From: a virus
DNA length: 44,978 nucleotides
IMG/VR virus record: IMGVR_UViG_3300033182_000753
Span: 1 to 44,978 of that record
Reading direction: 5' to 3' (one strand)
Shown here: positions 7,873-40,030 of the stretch, in pieces
How positions within the stretch are numbered: position 1 is the stretch's first letter
Layout: every line of letters begins with the position of its first letter
The notes under the pieces: generated by a model
Databases searched by the model: none
The model's input: only the letters and a program-made list of their open reading frames with translations
What the model was told of the DNA's origin: nothing
Made by a program: the position numbers and the translations under genes

Positions 7873-8262
7873 TTATTCTCCTAAATTGTTTTTGTTCTTA
7901 TAATCTAGGATCGCAGTTTTGATTGCATCTTCTGCGAGAACACTACAGTGGATTTTTACAGGGGGAAGGGAGAGTTCTTGAGCGAGGTCAGTATTCTTGA
8001 TCTGATTAGCTTCCTCAAGGCTTTTACCTTTGACCCATTCTGTGAGAAGAGAACTTGATGCAATTGCGGATCCGCATCCAAAAGTTTTGAATTTAGCGTC
8101 TTCAATGATTCCGTTGGGCGAAACCTTGATTTGCAATTGCATGACATCTCCGCAAGCCGGAGCGCCAACCAAGCCTGTTCCCACGGTTTCATCCGTTGCA
8201 TCAAGCTTTCCAACGTTTCTTGGGTTATCATAGTGGTCTAATACTTCCTTTGAGTATGCCAT
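7873..8262 (-). CDS. iscU: IscU-like iron-sulfur cluster scaffold protein
   Basis: Scaffold on which [2Fe-2S] clusters are built from cysteine-desulfurase sulfur before transfer to apoproteins. At 129 residues it is full length for IscU. It has the three cluster cysteines in context: GAPACGDVM (C37, D39), TFGCGSAIASSS (C63) and HCSVLAEDA (H105, C106). It also has the LPPVK segment (99-103), which in bacterial IscU is the HscA-chaperone recognition motif. No other Isc/Suf gene is visible here, so it would have to work with host IscS/HscA or an equivalent. It sits in the gp43-downstream unit between an exported protein and a membrane protein. An auxiliary metabolic role (supporting host Fe-S supply during infection) is inferred. 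Confidence 0.93.
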   Translation of the reverse strand: MAYSKEVLDHYDNPRNVGKLDATDETVGTGLVGAPACGDVMQLQIKVSPNGIIEDAKFKTFGCGSAIASSSLLTEWVKGKSLEEANQIKNTDLAQELSLPPVKIHCSVLAEDAIKTAILDYKNKNNLGE

Positions 8263-12329: not shown

Positions 12330-12779
12330 TTAGTCCTCAGTTAAAAGTTGTTTCTTACCTTTTTTACCAATTTGGACAATGCGAGGACGCTTCTCTTCGG
12401 GGATTTCAACTCTCAAATCTATAACGAGTAATCCATCTTTGAAGTCTGCTCCGTCTACAACAACGTGTTCGGACAGTCTGAAAGTACGCGTGAATTTCTT
12501 TGCAGAAATACCACGGTGGAGATACTCACGTTCTTCGTCTCCCTCGGTTTTACCACCAGTTACCACGAGGATTCCATCTTTGACCTCAACAGTGAGCTCA
12601 TCTTTGGAATAACCAGCTAATGCTAGTTCAACTGAGAAATGTGTATCATCTTGTTTGACTACATTGTGAGGAGGATACAGCTTATTGTCTGACATTTCTG
12701 AAAGACGAGCGATATCATTCCAAATGTGGTCGAACCCAATGAAGTGTGAACGTGGAAAAGAAAATGCTTTGCTAACCAT
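12330..12779 (-). CDS. Hsp20/alpha-crystallin small heat-shock protein
   Basis: ATP-independent holdase chaperone, a recurrent gene of marine T4-like phages. The 149 residues include the alpha-crystallin domain (about 40-135): FSVELALAGYSKDELTVEVKDGILVVTGGK, then FTRTFRLSEHVVVDGADFKDGLLVIDL, with the G-L-L-V motif. The tail is basic with no obvious IXI motif. It has the strongest ribosome-binding site in the region (AAAGGAGGCCGTT). A weak -10 (TAGAGT at 12820-12815) lies upstream, but no convincing -35 is visible. Confidence 0.93.
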   Translation of the reverse strand: MVSKAFSFPRSHFIGFDHIWNDIARLSEMSDNKLYPPHNVVKQDDTHFSVELALAGYSKDELTVEVKDGILVVTGGKTEGDEEREYLHRGISAKKFTRTFRLSEHVVVDGADFKDGLLVIDLRVEIPEEKRPRIVQIGKKGKKQLLTED

Positions 12780-18519: not shown

Positions 18520-20211
18520 TTAAAATAGACAAATTTCTTGTTCATCTTCAAATAATAATTCATCCATGTACATTTTACTTGTAGGTAAAAATTGTACACT
18601 ATGCTCCATTTCATGTAGTTGGCTCATTATATATCTTGTTCTTTGGATCGTCTCTGCATTATTTGTAGGTGGTGGTTGGTCTTCGATCAGGTCTAGACAG
18701 AAACAGCCACCACGTGTACCCATCTTCACCGACTGCCCCGCATAAGACCCTGCCTCTTCTGGCCAAAGACATGTCAGGTCGAAATTAGAAAACTTACCAG
18801 TCGCCAAGTCTGCATATGACATGATCGTACCATATCCACCATACACACCTTCGTAATCTGGATTGTCTTTCTGCGGATTATAACCAGGAAGATTGTATCC
18901 AAACGAGTATTCAAAGATTCCTGGCTGATCTGAATCTTGCCACTCATGTTGAGCGCCGAGCAAATGTCCGAGCTCATGAGCAAACGTCTCGCGCGCGCGT
19001 TCGTAATATCTCGTGGTTGAGGTTGATTGGAAAGTGCTATTATGGAAACACTGTGTAATGCCTCGAGTTTTATCAATACCACGCGTGGCGTCTAAATTAG
19101 CAACACCACATGCAATTCCATTTTCGGGTCTTTTCTTAAACAGGAACGCAATGTCAGCGCCTACCTGACGCTGCCAATCGTCAAGACCACTAAACTCATA
19201 ACGACCATTAAAAAATGCAGCGTATTGTCGGTACAAGTCACCTGCGGCAACTTCTACCATTTTGATACCAGCAACACGAACTACGGTATGTAAATTAGAT
19301 GAGAGGTAAATGTGATTTGCTTCCCACACTTGTTTGTCTACAAACTCTTCAACCGTCATGCCATCACGATCTTCTTCGGTTAAGTTGGTGTCAAATACAA
19401 CCAACATATCAATAACTGCCAGACCAGTATCTTGTTTATCAAACGGGAAGCTGACCGGCGTTCGTTGCTTTACACCATCACAAGTCAAGTAATTATATCT
19501 TGTGTCACCAGTATCAGTTGGAGTGGTTGGACAATCAGCTGGTTTCTCCATCTGAACAAAACAAGTTTGGTCTACGTGCACGAGTCGATCAGTATAGATG
19601 CCGCCTTCACCATCGTGATAATCTTGTAGACGATCTTGACGCAATAGGTGATTGATACCTTGTGCTACGACTTCCAGCTTTTCAGTATCATCCTCAAGAA
19701 TGTAAGCACAATATGAATCACCGATTGGTGTGCCTTCTTCGGGTACTAGTGTCCAACCACAATCTTCTGAGTCTGTCTCTACTACTTCAGTATATGAACC
19801 ACCTTCGCCGTCTGCGAGGTCTTGTACTTTATCAAACTCACTGAGATTTTGTACCGTGTTGAGTAAATCTATAAATTGTTGTTCGGTTGAATTGGCACAA
19901 TATGGATCACTGAGCGGTGTACCAAATTGAGGTGGTGCCTCATATCCGCACTGTTCTGAGTTAGGTGTTTCTTCTGTTGTCGAACCACCATTACCATCAG
20001 CAATGGTTTCGATGAGTGTCGTGCCATCGCACGATGTCTCCAATATAGTTCCTTCTGTCGGATTAGAGGGTGTAGTTGGAGTTGGTGTTACTACTATTTG
20101 TTGATCTTCAGTACCGCTACCGCCGCCACCACATGCAGCGAGTAATAATATAGAACCTACTACTATTACCAACAATAGTGTTCTTGTTGGAAAACAGCTA
20201 TAAAATTTCAT
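18520..20211 (-). CDS. Secreted metzincin-type metalloprotease lipoprotein
   Basis: 563 residues. A lipoprotein signal ends in LLLAACGG with lipid-acceptor C27, so the product should be anchored in the envelope. Residues about 30-240 hold imperfect repeats, each with a DGxGGxxT motif and Cys pairs (DGNGGSTTEE, DGEGGSYTEVVE, DGEGGIYTDRL; GTPLSDPYC, GTPIGDSYC). The catalytic part carries HELGHLLGAQH (412-422), the metzincin zinc site HExxHxxGxxH, and the Met-turn GTIMSYAD (M464). It resembles reprolysin/M12-like or M43-like secreted peptidases. Coupled by overlap to a SleB hydrolase. Possible roles: host-envelope processing, defence against surface competitors, or lysis. Unusual in a phage. Confidence 0.85.
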   Translation of the reverse strand: MKFYSCFPTRTLLLVIVVGSILLLAACGGGGSGTEDQQIVVTPTPTTPSNPTEGTILETSCDGTTLIETIADGNGGSTTEETPNSEQCGYEAPPQFGTPLSDPYCANSTEQQFIDLLNTVQNLSEFDKVQDLADGEGGSYTEVVETDSEDCGWTLVPEEGTPIGDSYCAYILEDDTEKLEVVAQGINHLLRQDRLQDYHDGEGGIYTDRLVHVDQTCFVQMEKPADCPTTPTDTGDTRYNYLTCDGVKQRTPVSFPFDKQDTGLAVIDMLVVFDTNLTEEDRDGMTVEEFVDKQVWEANHIYLSSNLHTVVRVAGIKMVEVAAGDLYRQYAAFFNGRYEFSGLDDWQRQVGADIAFLFKKRPENGIACGVANLDATRGIDKTRGITQCFHNSTFQSTSTTRYYERARETFAHELGHLLGAQHEWQDSDQPGIFEYSFGYNLPGYNPQKDNPDYEGVYGGYGTIMSYADLATGKFSNFDLTCLWPEEAGSYAGQSVKMGTRGGCFCLDLIEDQPPPTNNAETIQRTRYIMSQLHEMEHSVQFLPTSKMYMDELLFEDEQEICLF

Positions 20212-20696
20212 CTATCATACCTATAAAATACGTGAGCACCAATGCTCTTAGTTCTAACCATAGAATCAACCCAATATGGTTCAACTTTCGTACTATGATA
20301 AAACAACGACCCGTCTGTTAGATCATGATAGCCGTGATACACAACTTCTGCTACACGTATACTATCTTTGTATGCTCTCATATCGACAGGTACATCTGCC
20401 TTACCATCACAAAACCAACTGAATTGACACTGATTTCGTCTAGGTAAACGATTGCCTTTCCAGTTGACATACCATTTAGCTTGAGTCACAACACCACAAA
20501 CTGTACTAGGATACTTATTGTGTTTTACACGATTCATCGTGACATTTGCGACTGCAATTTTACCAGTCAGAGATTCTCCTCTCGCCTCAAAGTAGATGTT
20601 CTTCGCAAGACAATCAATTTCGTCTTGTATCCATTCGTCGGAAGCTGTAGCTTCTGACCATACCATACACATTATAACAAGTAATAGCTTATACAT
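20208..20696 (-). CDS. SleB/CwlJ-type cell wall hydrolase, exported
   Basis: 162 residues. Signal peptide MYKLLLVIMCMVWSEATA, then the Hydrolase_2 domain: CLAKNIYFEARGES (catalytic Glu region), AVANVTMNRVKHNKYPSTVCGVV, and CQFSWFCDGKAD. Predicted peptidoglycan lytic hydrolase delivered to the periplasm by the host export system, complementary to the cytoplasmic T4-type lysozyme. Strong RBS AAGGAGGAGTTT. It lies directly downstream of the tmRNA terminator. Confidence 0.88.
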   Translation of the reverse strand: MYKLLLVIMCMVWSEATASDEWIQDEIDCLAKNIYFEARGESLTGKIAVANVTMNRVKHNKYPSTVCGVVTQAKWYVNWKGNRLPRRNQCQFSWFCDGKADVPVDMRAYKDSIRVAEVVYHGYHDLTDGSLFYHSTKVEPYWVDSMVRTKSIGAHVFYRYDR

Positions 20697-20718: not shown

Positions 20719-20753
20719 AAAAAAATGCCACACTTGGATAACAAGGCAGTGGC
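20719..20753 (-). terminator. Terminator downstream of the tmRNA coding piece
   Basis: Minus strand: GCCAC (20753-20749), loop, GTGGC (20731-20727), then A and T7 (20725-20719). The short stem can be extended by alternative pairing (CACT/AGTG). It sits between the tmRNA and the SleB gene. Confidence 0.6.
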
Positions 20754-20765
20754 CGCCCCGCGGGA

Positions 20766-20810
20766 TCATGCAGCTAGTGCGTAATCACCGTAGTAACTGT
20801 CATCATTGGC
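20766..20810 (-). other. tmRNA proteolysis-tag reading frame
   Basis: Starts at the likely resume codon GCC (20810-20808) and ends with TGA (20768-20766). Encodes ANDDSYYGDYALAA, which has the 'AND' start and 'ALAA' end of proteobacterial tags recognised by ClpXP and related proteases. Confidence 0.88.
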
Positions 20811-20899
20811 AGTTATAGTTTTGAACCACCGTTTTACGTCAGCGTTCATGGACGGTTCTCCATTTGCTTTCAGTTGCCTGTCGATTCCGTAACGCCCCC

Positions 20900-20998
20900 A
20901 TCAGATGAACACTATGTCGGATTTCCACCCACATACCCAACCAGCGGGATCTTGATCGTAGACTAAAATGACTACTCTTTAGATCAATAGTGTTCATT
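20900..20998 (-). other. tmRNA intervening segment with 11-bp clamp
   Basis: Segment between the CCA end and the GGGGGCG start, expected to be removed to give the two-piece RNA. ATGAACACTAT near its beginning and ATAGTGTTCAT near its end are perfect inverted repeats (11 bp). They would extend the acceptor stem in the precursor and bring both processing sites together. Confidence 0.8.
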
Positions 20999-21049
20999 TG
21001 GTGGAGGCGGCGGGAGTCGAACCCGCGTCCAAACTTCCTAATACAAACT

Positions 21050-22531
21050 TCAGCGAACATCTCTATTTATTTCTTGACAAATTCGCGATGCGTCTTGAGT
21101 AATTTCTATAGGATTGTCTAAATCATAATAATTTCTTAAATCGCAAACTGTTCTCCATTTATTAAAGCCGTCATGACCATAAACTTTATATGAATCATAT
21201 ACATCTAATGCTTCAATATCTGTTGTGTCCATACCATGTATCCACGGACCGCCGCGAGTAAAATGCAAACCATACGAATCATGTATTTCATTTAAGTCAC
21301 TATAGCCTTCACACCAATTCCACTTTTTTGGTAATTCAGCGATAGCATCAGTCCATTCAAATCCATGTAAATACTTTCCGCTTTCGGTCAACACTTTGTC
21401 AAGGGTTAACTTCTGACAATCTGGATGAGCATTATTAAATATCATCAAGCTTGACCAGAGTTTCTTATCATACCATGTATCTTTAACATTTGTAAACTTT
21501 GTATCATATTTGTGTTCAAAGTTATGTTTGACACATGCCACAGCACAATCAGGATCCATGAAAAAGAGTGTGTTTAAAATATTTTCTGTAAAAATAAAAT
21601 CATCATCTACAAAAATACTCATGCCTTCGTAGTTAGATAAGTATGGAACTAAGAAACGTGAATATGTAAATTCAGTTGATTGATCTTTGTATTCTCTCGT
21701 CCACCCATGTATTTTAGTAACATCGAGATGATGTATCTTGAGGAACTTATTGAGGTGAGGAGAGATATTATCTTGTATAGAATTATGACAAACGTAAGTA
21801 GCATCTTTATGTGTACTATCATAACCTATAAAGATATTAATAGGCTTGTCCCACATGTGTCTAACTTTTTCTTCCCATGCCCTGAGATTCTTCGATAGGT
21901 TCGTATGCTTAGAATTTTTGTGTATGTTCAAAATTTGTGGTGTATTCATATCGTTTTCACTTGGCAACAATGCTATTTCTAGCTCAGTATTGTCAGTATC
22001 ATATAGTGATATGATGTCACTTAAAGAAGCTTTTGGATAATCTGGAAAAATACAAAAAGGATCGAACACAACACAAAGATCATTTCTATCAGCCATTTTA
22101 AATGCGTGTTTTCTAAAAGAACCTGGATGAACATTTTGACTAAACACATTTGCATCATTTTTGTGTATATCAAACGACATCGATACCGTAATAGGTTCAC
22201 ATTTTTCTTTACTAATACTATTTAATAACCAATGCATTTTAATTATTCTGCGATACATACTATTCGCTGTGCCATCTAATTGGCCGGCAAATAAAAAGTT
22301 CTCATCAGTTTTTTGGCCTTCGGATAATCGACACGTATAATTATACACGTCATCACCAAATAATTTTTCGGATTTCAAATCCTTCACTGCAGCAATAGCA
22401 CTAAACGGTACGATTCTAACATGTTTGTAGTCAGAATAGTATTGTTCTATGCTTGTTCCTTTTACTCCATTTGGATCTCCTTTATAGAGAATATGGTATT
22501 GTAAAGGAAGTGGATCAGTATTATAGATCAT
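21050..22531 (-). CDS. Two-domain protein with GT8-like glycosyltransferase C-terminus
   Basis: 493 residues. The N-terminal part (about 1-225) is unrecognised (PLPLQYHILYKGDPNG, HWLLNSISKEK, LCVVFDPFCIFPDYPKAS). The C-terminal part (about 228-480) reads like a GT-A glycosyltransferase of the family-8 type: INIFIGYDSTHKDATYVCHNSI, TYSRFLVPYLSNYEG, then SIFVDDDFIF with the DxD metal site (309-311). Later LHFTRGGPWI may contribute the C-terminal His/Gly ligand region. Target unknown. Start overlaps the HAD gene stop (ATGA). Confidence 0.7.
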   Translation of the reverse strand: MIYNTDPLPLQYHILYKGDPNGVKGTSIEQYYSDYKHVRIVPFSAIAAVKDLKSEKLFGDDVYNYTCRLSEGQKTDENFLFAGQLDGTANSMYRRIIKMHWLLNSISKEKCEPITVSMSFDIHKNDANVFSQNVHPGSFRKHAFKMADRNDLCVVFDPFCIFPDYPKASLSDIISLYDTDNTELEIALLPSENDMNTPQILNIHKNSKHTNLSKNLRAWEEKVRHMWDKPINIFIGYDSTHKDATYVCHNSIQDNISPHLNKFLKIHHLDVTKIHGWTREYKDQSTEFTYSRFLVPYLSNYEGMSIFVDDDFIFTENILNTLFFMDPDCAVACVKHNFEHKYDTKFTNVKDTWYDKKLWSSLMIFNNAHPDCQKLTLDKVLTESGKYLHGFEWTDAIAELPKKWNWCEGYSDLNEIHDSYGLHFTRGGPWIHGMDTTDIEALDVYDSYKVYGHDGFNKWRTVCDLRNYYDLDNPIEITQDASRICQEINRDVR

Positions 22532-30684: not shown

Positions 30685-30939
30685 CTAAAGGTCTGTATAT
30701 TTATATTCCTCCCAAGTCGACCATTTAGCAGAGCGAGACCTATTTACTACAGTCGATGTACCAACACCGTGCGCTGCAGCATGTTCTTCAACGGTAAGTT
30801 CAACTAGATTTGATGAATCGTCTGTTCCGCCTGCATGTTTAGGTATTTTATGATGCAGATGTGTCTTTTTCCCATGGTCTGTATGAGTCGATTCTGTCGT
30901 ATATTGTTTCGTCCTGTAATACGGGTTCCGTCCCGACAT
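30685..30939 (-). CDS. Short HNH homing endonuclease
   Basis: 84 residues. LHHKIPKHAGGTDDSSNLVELTVEEHAAAH is the HNH metal-binding fold (HH...N...H). It passes at once into GVGTSTVVNRSRSAKWSTWEEY, a DNA-binding NUMOD-type tail. The usual long middle is missing, so it is either a minimal enzyme or an internally deleted one. It overlaps the PLP-enzyme 3' end by 92 nt, suggesting insertion there. A TATAAATA motif lies at 30983-30976. Confidence 0.75.
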   Translation of the reverse strand: MSGRNPYYRTKQYTTESTHTDHGKKTHLHHKIPKHAGGTDDSSNLVELTVEEHAAAHGVGTSTVVNRSRSAKWSTWEEYKYTDL

Positions 30940-31738
30940 TCCACATTAGAACGTCTTTATGTTTGGCTTCTTCCTTATTTATAAAACGCCACACTTTACC
31001 ATCATACGTATCAATAGTTGGAAATGGTGGTAGGAACTCAGGTTTTTCAGGAGTCGTAAAAGGAAACGGATGACTTATAACTTCAGCTCGACCTAACTCG
31101 CCGGCTTTAAGATTCCGAGCAACAGCAACGCAACGGAAGGTAGCATTGGGCCATGCAATCTGAAGAGCTCTTGTAAGAACACCAGTAGAGATAGCGACGT
31201 ATACGATTTCGGGCTCAGGAATCTTACTAGCCGCGTATACGATTCCCGCAGTGGCGAGTTCGTGTTTGAGTCCGAGGGGGATGAAGTACGCGCCAGTTCG
31301 TTCAGCATATTCTTTTGCCTTTTTATTGAGGTTGGGCATCGCAGCGATACGATGAAATTCTACATCAGCACCACGCTCAATACAACAAGCTTGATGCAAT
31401 GATACTCGTTTTGAAGAAGGCATAAACAACGTTACCTTCTTATTATGATGCTTTGCTACATCGAGAAGAGATACACCAGCAAGGCCAGTTCGAGGCTGAC
31501 AATACACAAGATGATCATTGGGAATCCGAGCAGCGAGAAGATCTCCTGCTCTTGTTTTTGTTCCAATGGTAAGATCATCCCTGACCACTCGCACACCATT
31601 GTGTTCTTTGACAATTGGGTCAGGATTGTATGGTGTCCATCCATCACATAATTCCAAGTAGTAGTCTTTTGCTGCCTCGTAACCAAACAGACCTACATCC
31701 TTATTTACTCCATCAATTACGTGGTTGTTGTGAGCCAT
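30848..31738 (-). CDS. PLP-dependent enzyme, ACC-deaminase/D-cysteine-desulfhydrase-like
   Basis: 296 residues from ATG 31738 (GAGAAG upstream). VVRDDLTIGTKTRAGDLLAA resembles the cofactor-lysine loop of fold-type II PLP enzymes (K61; compare GNKxRKLE in ACC deaminases). CQPRTGLAGVSLLDVAKHHNKKVTLFMP would be the Ser/Asn-rich phosphate and substrate loop, and VYVAISTGVLTRALQIAW the Gly/Ser loop near the end. Substrate unknown. PLP enzymes occur in known phage base-hypermodification clusters, and its neighbours make that role attractive (inference). Confidence 0.6.
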   Translation of the reverse strand: MAHNNHVIDGVNKDVGLFGYEAAKDYYLELCDGWTPYNPDPIVKEHNGVRVVRDDLTIGTKTRAGDLLAARIPNDHLVYCQPRTGLAGVSLLDVAKHHNKKVTLFMPSSKRVSLHQACCIERGADVEFHRIAAMPNLNKKAKEYAERTGAYFIPLGLKHELATAGIVYAASKIPEPEIVYVAISTGVLTRALQIAWPNATFRCVAVARNLKAGELGRAEVISHPFPFTTPEKPEFLPPFPTIDTYDGKVWRFINKEEAKHKDVLMWNVGTEPVLQDETIYDRIDSYRPWEKDTSAS

Positions 31739-31949
31739 ATTTCTTCTCAAATTGTAAACGCAGGTATGTCTTACGACTCACTGCAAAAAAGAACATTATA
31801 CCTGTTTGTGCTATCATTGTAACTGTCGGTCCCCACATAAACTCGAAGGCATAATATAAAATTATCCAACTCAAAGCTATGTTAAGTGGTGTAGCGAGTA
31901 CAGTATCAGTGACCGCCTCGATTACGGCTCTACGCACTCGTTCTGTCAT
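31713..31949 (-). CDS. Small membrane protein
   Basis: 78 residues: MTERVRRAVIEAVTDTVLATPLNIALSWIILYYAFEF and a second hydrophobic segment (VTMIAQTGIMFFFAV), then a basic tail. This EAVTDTVLAT opening is familiar from small conserved phage membrane proteins. Overlaps both neighbours. Function unknown. Confidence 0.65.
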   Translation of the reverse strand: MTERVRRAVIEAVTDTVLATPLNIALSWIILYYAFEFMWGPTVTMIAQTGIMFFFAVSRKTYLRLQFEKKYGSQQPRN

Positions 31950-39272: not shown

Positions 39273-39519
39273 GATGATTCTCCGTATTAACCGATTGAAC
39301 CGGTCTAAATTTTCGACCGGTTCGTCTTTCTCGTCTAGATGTATCCATCTTACCATTATATAGGGGAAATGTACATGGTGAATAGGTGCGCATATACACT
39401 TTCTCATATCCATAATACCACTGACCATCTTTGCAATGTGGAATGTGATAGTCTTTTGGACTTGGTTTTCTTTTCGGTTTTTTGCGAAAACCAAATTTCT
39501 CTGTCAAATTATCAAGCAA
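39265..39519 (-). CDS. Basic hypothetical protein with TTG start
   Basis: 84 residues if read from TTG 39519, overlapping the deformylase stop. HIPHCKDGQWYYGYEKVYMRTYSPCTFPLYNGKMD followed by an Arg-rich tail looks protein-like, and the frame ends in an overlap with the MazG-like start. The start codon is not supported by a good RBS. A weak promoter candidate (TTCAC-17 nt-TATAATGG, 39382-39355) lies inside it. Confidence 0.45.
   Translation of the reverse strand: MLDNLTEKFGFRKKPKRKPSPKDYHIPHCKDGQWYYGYEKVYMRTYSPCTFPLYNGKMDTSRRERRTGRKFRPVQSVNTENHHE
39355..39382 (-). promoter_or_regulatory. Weaker promoter candidate before the MazG-like gene
   Basis: TTCAC (39382-39378), 17-nt spacer, TATAAT (39360-39355) followed by GG. 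The -10 is consensus, the -35-like element differs by one base from TTTAC. It lies inside a short coding frame. Confidence 0.4.
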
Positions 39520-40030
39520 GTTGCATTCTCTTTAGTTTGCGTTCGATCAACTTTTGTTTTCTTTTTGCTTGATCTAAATGAATTTTCTTTGCTTTAGAAA
39601 GATAGTTGACTCCATCAAGATGATCGAGTTCATGTTGAAAAGCTCGCGCTGCTAAACCATTTAGAGTTTCGGTTCTCATACTACCATCGACTTCTTGAAA
39701 ACGGACACGAATCCATTGTGGCCGTCTAATTTTTACAAATAAGCCAGGAAATGTCAAACAACCTTCTTCTACGACCGCATACTTCTCACTATAATGTATA
39801 ATCCTTGGATTAAAACACACAATAGGATCAGGTTTAGTGTTTAATACAAATACACGATGCTCAAGACCAAGTTGATTAGCAGCAAGACCCGCAGCTCCGG
39901 CTTTCTGCATCATGTCAACCATTTTTTCAGTCAATTCTTTTGGATCTATAGAACCATCAAACTCAAACTGTTCTATTTTTTTGGTGAACGCTGGATGACT
40001 CGGCGGTACAATGTGTAGCTTATCCGACAT
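39512..40030 (-). CDS. def: Peptide deformylase
   Basis: Removes the N-formyl group from new proteins. 172 residues with all three metal motifs: GLAANQLG (about 48-55), EGCLTFPG (89-96) and QHELDHLDG (HExxH 133-137). The basic C-terminal helix (KAKKIHLDQAKRKQKLIERKLKRM) may bind the ribosome. Marine T4-like phages often carry def. Confidence 0.95.
   Translation of the reverse strand: MSDKLHIVPPSHPAFTKKIEQFEFDGSIDPKELTEKMVDMMQKAGAAGLAANQLGLEHRVFVLNTKPDPIVCFNPRIIHYSEKYAVVEEGCLTFPGLFVKIRRPQWIRVRFQEVDGSMRTETLNGLAARAFQHELDHLDGVNYLSKAKKIHLDQAKRKQKLIERKLKRMQLA

Follow-up and report, generated by a model that had tools for sequence, protein, structure and literature searches.

A 44,978-base IMG/VR virus record, analyzed here over its full length and called the window, carries a locus that an earlier note had read from the letters alone as a circularly permuted, two-piece tmRNA gene. 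This locus raises the question of whether a phage keeps such a gene in working order and of what is carried in the spacer that separates its two halves. The genome is T4-like, as had been proposed, with homologues of gp43 DNA polymerase, UvsX, gp44 and gp62 (the clamp loader), gp45 (the sliding clamp), RegA, gp46/47, and the late sigma factor gp55, along with a DnaB-like (gp41-type) helicase and a further DNA helicase. Cyanophage and marine T4-like enzymes are the nearest matches to the polymerase, at about 47% identity. Auxiliary genes for a peptide deformylase (39512-40030), an Hsp20 (12330-12779), a NifU-like protein (7873-8262), and a threonine-dehydratase-like protein (30848-31750) were also seen in the window.

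Layout and conservation of the permuted tmRNA gene

The covariance-model search that the earlier note had suggested as a check was run and returned a full-length match to RF04321 (tmRNA_permuted; model positions 1-213 of 213) at 21061-20727 on the minus strand. The match scored 105.1 bits (gathering score, 47), with an E value of 1.4e-19 computed for the window, and the T arm and pseudoknots were intact. ARAGORN called a tmRNA* here as well, and its tag, ANDDSYYGDYALAA, is the same tag, ending in ALAA and followed by TGA, that had been read originally. On the minus strand between 20600 and 21300, the order is GATGTTCG, T arm, CGCCTCCACCA, 99 nt, GGGGGCGTTACGGAATCGACA, and the ANDDSYYGDYALAA-TGA frame. 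As claimed, the T-arm/CCA half (about 21061-20999) comes before the GGGGGCG half (from 20899), and the halves pair as a 7-bp acceptor stem, in which CGCCUCC (21009-21003) is joined to GGGGGCG (20899-20893) with a G3-U70 wobble included. The G3-U70 pair is the main alanine identity element. These data identify the locus as a complete circularly permuted tmRNA gene. The earlier note had thus recognized the gene and placed it correctly; its limits of 20754-21063 were slightly narrow, with the 3' hairpin and T run reaching to about 20719. The features of the locus are listed in Table 1.

Table 1. Features of the tmRNA locus and its neighbors, in window coordinates
Feature	Position	Strand	Description	Evidence
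Upstream ORF, 493 aa, nucleotide-sugar-transferase-like	21050..22531	-	Stop overlaps first 12 nt of tmRNA	phrog_28018; tblastn hits annotated nucleotide-diphospho-sugar transferase
T4-type late-promoter-like element AATAAATA (consensus TATAAATA)	21064..21071	-	Just before RNA start	
Acceptor half	20999..21061	-	5' strand of P2, T arm GCGGG-TTCGACT-CCCGC, acceptor 3' strand CGCCUCC, discriminator A, encoded CCA (21001-20999)	RF04321 alignment; compensatory changes in P1, T stem, P2
Intervening sequence, 99 nt	20900..20998	-	Predicted absent from mature RNA	Fold, base stem
mRNA half	20727..20899	-	GGGGGCG acceptor 5' strand, D region, P2 3' strand, pseudoknot 1, tag frame, 3' pseudoknot and hairpin	ARAGORN, RF04321, covariation
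Tag reading frame ANDDSYYGDYALAA and TGA (GCC..GCA TGA)	20766..20810	-		ARAGORN
3' hairpin GCCAC/GUGGC, then T run	20719..20753	-	tmRNA 3' end, likely intrinsic terminator	Sequence; compensatory change in L034
Downstream endolysin gene	20208..20696	-	About 22 nt past T run	PF07486 cell wall hydrolase, Pfam 96 bits; phrog_938

The tag is of the degradation type, with an ALAA end, and reads either ANDDSYYGDYALAA or ANDDNYYGDYALAA in relatives. A hairpin, UAACUG..CAGUUA, surrounds the resume codon (20791-20815, minus strand); in L123, L124, L127, and other contigs it reads UAGUUG..CAACUA, which amounts to two compensatory changes.

Covariation was assessed in 12 sequences, that of the window and those of 11 relatives. 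Pairing persists despite sequence variation in P1, P2, the T stem, the 3' hairpin, the 3' pseudoknot, and both pseudoknot 1 stems. The helix changes are mostly two-sided (compensatory), with some wobble in pseudoknot 1 and the 3' pseudoknot; a few noncanonical pairs occur, mainly in the short P2 of more distant relatives. The 7-bp acceptor stem with G3-U70 is kept throughout the 12 sequences. A3-U70 acceptor stems were considered for the ..GGUCCACCA tmRNAs and rejected: every recovered 5' half starts with GGG, so G3-U70 is kept. Close relatives were picked by the closest endolysin (70-93% identity) or by an NT5C-like neighbor (83-89%). Those whose contigs extend to the site, 16 in number, all have the tmRNA; they include one of 160 kb and L217. 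The compensatory changes in the stems and the retention of the gene at one site in 16 relatives show that the tmRNA match is more than chance. This comparative evidence indicates that the gene of the window is complete and under purifying selection in a T4-like phage genus. A general linkage of tmRNA and endolysin was also considered and rejected, with the tmRNA lying directly upstream of the endolysin gene in the 7 closest relatives and in none of 73 at 47 to 55% identity.

Lineage and late-promoter-like element

A permuted ssrA had been called unusual for a T4-like genome, which proved incorrect. A 2022 study described two-piece tmRNAs from T4-like phages of marine origin and counted 53 among phage isolate genomes, most of them aquatic, as well as 17 in 47 Melnitz-group contigs (PMC9004378). 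With one search pattern, we found permuted tmRNA loci in at least 120 IMG/VR contigs. A phage-encoded permuted tmRNA is in itself already known.

An alphaproteobacterial host or origin was not supported either. The best lineage model was RF01850 (Beta_tmRNA), which matched the window tmRNA over its full length at 79 bits, against a cut-off of 84; RF01849, the alpha model, was not the best match. The GGACCCGGGGGCGGTACCC form of the T arm, which we take to be alphaproteobacterial, is found in nearly all sampled permuted cellular tmRNAs and is absent from the window.

The promoter-like element has one mismatch to TATAAATA, the T4 late promoter box. Within the genus, ATAAATA stands a few bases 5' of the RNA start and is invariant in all eight aligned members. 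Among 147 phage permuted tmRNAs, 46 have TATAAATA with at most one mismatch at -75 to -40 from the T loop, compared with about 7 per equal window further upstream. Because the window holds both the late-promoter motif and a gp55-like late sigma factor, we infer that its tmRNA is expressed late.

The spacer between CCA and G1

The mature parts of the tmRNA are 90 to 98% identical to those of the window within the genus, and the spacers are unrelated in sequence. Their lengths also differ: the window spacer has 99 nt, and the others are a 20-nt linker in nine contigs, 55 nt in four, 72 nt in one, and 150 nt in two. In L127, a relative within the genus, the spacer contains a Shine-Dalgarno (SD)-ATG frame of 55 codons, with a weak match to phrog_16066. 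The 55-nt spacer also occurs in L109, a phage that is 87% identical over the tmRNA and has another gene order; spacers thus appear to move between phages. ARAGORN placed a tRNA-Asn in the spacer of L037, a call that was rejected, as the Rfam tRNA model did not make it.

The base of the window spacer is a perfect 11-bp stem (20997-20987 paired with 20915-20905) followed by CUGAU, its interior is multibranched, and the predicted fold has a z score of -2.4 relative to shuffles. A base stem of at least 8 bp with no more than one mismatch was present in 91% of 157 distinct phage spacers, compared with 33% when the arms were taken from different phages. A similar short hairpin occurs in Burkholderiales tmRNAs, so the base stem looks ancestral, with the loop having been enlarged in phages. 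Searches for known content in the window spacer were negative: no Rfam match was found up to an E value of 10, which led us to reject a glutamine riboswitch or other known RNA, and its sequence pattern matched no other IMG/VR viral contig. A coding insert was rejected as well, since the only frame (MNTIDLKSSHFSLRSRSRWLGMWVEIRHSVHL..) is weak and has neither an SD sequence nor relatives. Spacers of 80 to 99 nt hold 10 open frames against 6.5 expected, which is not above chance. The 99-nt structured spacer of the window is probably noncoding. Elsewhere, the spacers of L310 and L314 resemble degraded tRNAs by eye, with T-arm-like GGGTTCGAATCCC and AGGTTCAAATCCT. A structured noncoding spacer family with the motif AGTGCGCATAA is common to the unrelated records L311, L325, and L350, and in L239, L247, and L062 a frame resembling a zinc ribbon (C..CGK.F.V....P...YCS..C) spans the T arm, CCA, and a 98-nt spacer.

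Longer spacers gave a different count. Of 31 distinct spacers of 130 to 200 nt from viral permuted tmRNAs, 21 contain a small ORF, defined as an ATG frame that starts in the first 26 nt and reaches within 14 nt of the spacer end. Dinucleotide shuffles predict 0.74 and never gave more than 3 coding spacers in 300 rounds; because some of the 31 spacers are related and thus not independent, counting by family is fairer. A search for the CCA-SD-ATG arrangement recovered 38 viral loci, 37 of which lie in tmRNA acceptor halves. In total, 44 distinct coding spacers in 17 ORF families were collected, and the median dN/dS was about 0.10 to 0.38 in the seven families where it could be measured. All 14 tmRNA genes with spacer ORFs that were tested matched RF04321 over the full length. 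Nested spacer genes were seen in L312, L317, L295, L315, L318, L420, L394-L428, L336-L349, L319, and L321.

The predicted small proteins include MFENWHWVY.., MENLILLVLIVVL.., and MKLFAKTRDNQ.., and several have a strongly hydrophobic segment. In some families (e.g., L312), the stop is a conserved UGA directly before G1; in others, the frame continues into the mature 5' half. The SD-ATG geometry is recurrent, with the SD sequence located in the 5' arm of the base stem. One family (MKTRKLQSGEEVTEL.. / MKRKLITGEEVPEL..) is found both in L344, which scores 139 bits with beta_tmRNA, and in L411, which scores 101 bits with alpha_tmRNA; this distribution argues for spacer exchange between the alpha- and beta-type tmRNA lineages. 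In L339, L345, and L347, the spacers are nearly identical and the tags differ. A tblastn search of five spacer-ORF families against 50,697 phage records gave no match.

About 85,000 cellular genomes were scanned as a partial control, the pattern missing alpha-type T arms and genes without an encoded CCA, and only two spacers of 131 to 191 nt, those of L350 and L351, were recovered. Both were rejected as cellular coding spacers. The L350 spacer is noncoding and lies in an Achromobacter genome beside a tRNA array and a GOLLD RNA. L351 (CALMJT010000228.1) has a permuted tmRNA whose spacer holds a 37-codon frame, on a 46-kb contig with phage-like genes that was binned in an Alteromonadales MAG, and it is likely a misbinned phage. 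Both loci look mobile or viral.

Proposed function of the tmRNA and its spacer

Taken together, the findings are very probably best explained by a working phage-encoded two-piece tmRNA with late expression and a replaceable spacer slot. It is highly improbable that the gene is instead a remnant of host ssrA, brought in by imprecise prophage excision or recombination and without phage function. Although ssrA is a common integration site, and most matches in phage-collection DNA span only about 50 bases of the query, some of them likely attachment fragments of temperate phages, the gene of the window is complete, has helices with compensatory changes, is kept at its site in 16 contigs, and has its own promoter-like element. 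It is also improbable that the main role of the phage RNA is to compete with host tmRNA by sequestering SmpB, and so to dampen host trans-translation, as proposed for mycobacteriophage DS6A. The DS6A RNA consists of the tRNA-like domain only, and RNA of this type inhibits tmRNA in Escherichia coli (PMC4131195, PMC11915505). A search for SmpB in the window and in the 160-kb relative was negative, which would suit a competitor and also means that the tmRNA would need host SmpB. However, the RNA of the window differs from that of DS6A in having an intact, conserved tag frame, pseudoknots, and ALAA end, none of which a decoy would need.

For the spacer, we consider it fairly likely that the permuted-tmRNA spacer of phages is a cargo slot. 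The precursor would double as an mRNA for exchangeable, conserved small proteins encoded between CCA and G1, ribosome binding would compete with RNA processing for one hairpin, and the genus of the window would be swapping the contents of the slot (20-nt linker, structured inserts, coding insert). That the spacer is neutral filler, with the ORFs of long spacers being incidental captures of phage genes that have no function there, is unlikely. Such filler would fit the rapid replacement of spacer sequence, the lack of a coding signal in the window spacer, the degraded-tRNA look of L310 and L314 by eye, and the reduction of the spacer to a 20-nt linker in some relatives, but it does not account for dN/dS values of about 0.1 to 0.4 in seven ORF families, the recurrent SD-ATG geometry, or the covarying base stem.

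Under the working-tmRNA explanation, the RNA would be transcribed from the T4-type late promoter, and the hairpin formed by the acceptor stem and spacer would be cut at G1 by host RNase P and at CCA by host 3' tRNA-processing enzymes, releasing the spacer. The two RNA pieces would then be joined by P1 and P2 and loaded through alanylation by host AlaRS and binding of host SmpB. Late in infection, when degraded mRNAs strand ribosomes, this tmRNA may rescue them and tag the nascent chains for host proteases; in this way, it could supply or replace host trans-translation. The excised spacer hairpin would be exempt from the constraints on the mature RNA and could serve as a replaceable slot, apparently swapped at least four times in the genus of the window and, across phages, often carrying a small protein gene. 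Where the spacer is coding, the SD sequence lies in the 5' arm of the base stem, so that folding of this stem would compete with translation, whether of the precursor or of the spacer once excised.

If this proposal is correct, protein genes of about 17 unrelated families nested in the precursor of a rescue RNA would constitute a new form of gene nesting, one that ties maturation of a noncoding RNA to expression of small phage proteins. Such ORFs are easily overlooked because they are located inside RNA genes. Our search of the open-licence literature found no report of protein genes in permuted-tmRNA spacers, which is not proof of novelty. The accessible part of a 2025 tmRNA database paper, which covers 97,179 sequences, 79 of them from phages, mentions one tRNA and one repetitive element inside intervening sequences and no protein-coding ones. 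What is new here is the exchange of the spacer between related phages and, in some phages, the conserved gene for a small protein that it contains; we have found neither reported.

The closest known systems are the marine T4-like myophages Melnitz (a Methylophilales phage) and Mosig (a Pelagibacter phage), which also have a complete permuted tmRNA (PMC9004378). In the annotated Mosig tmRNA, as in the window, an upstream ORF overlaps the 5' end; the Mosig spacer, however, is about 50 nt, its tag is GEDNFALAA, and its T arm is of another form. In the Melnitz study, the promoter was argued to be early and to be accompanied by a glutamine riboswitch (PMC9004378), whereas the window has a late-type promoter and no riboswitch match. 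The permuted tmRNAs of Betaproteobacteria (RF01850) share with the window the GGUUCGA T loop, the 3' CCUUGUUA pseudoknot region, and a short spacer hairpin, often with a GAU end before G1, but their spacers are about 25 to 43 nt in six Burkholderiales compared with 99 nt in the window. Group I introns with homing endonuclease ORFs likewise place a protein gene inside a tmRNA gene (PMC11915505); those ORFs belong to a self-splicing intron located in the T loop, whereas the phage ORFs lie between CCA and G1 of genes that have neither an intron nor an endonuclease. The same paper describes a tRNA-Ala in the intervening sequence of the permuted tmRNA of GCA-2688965, where the spacer also holds another gene. 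That case involves one tRNA, from a nominally archaeal MAG, whereas the phage spacer genes are protein-coding and recurrent.
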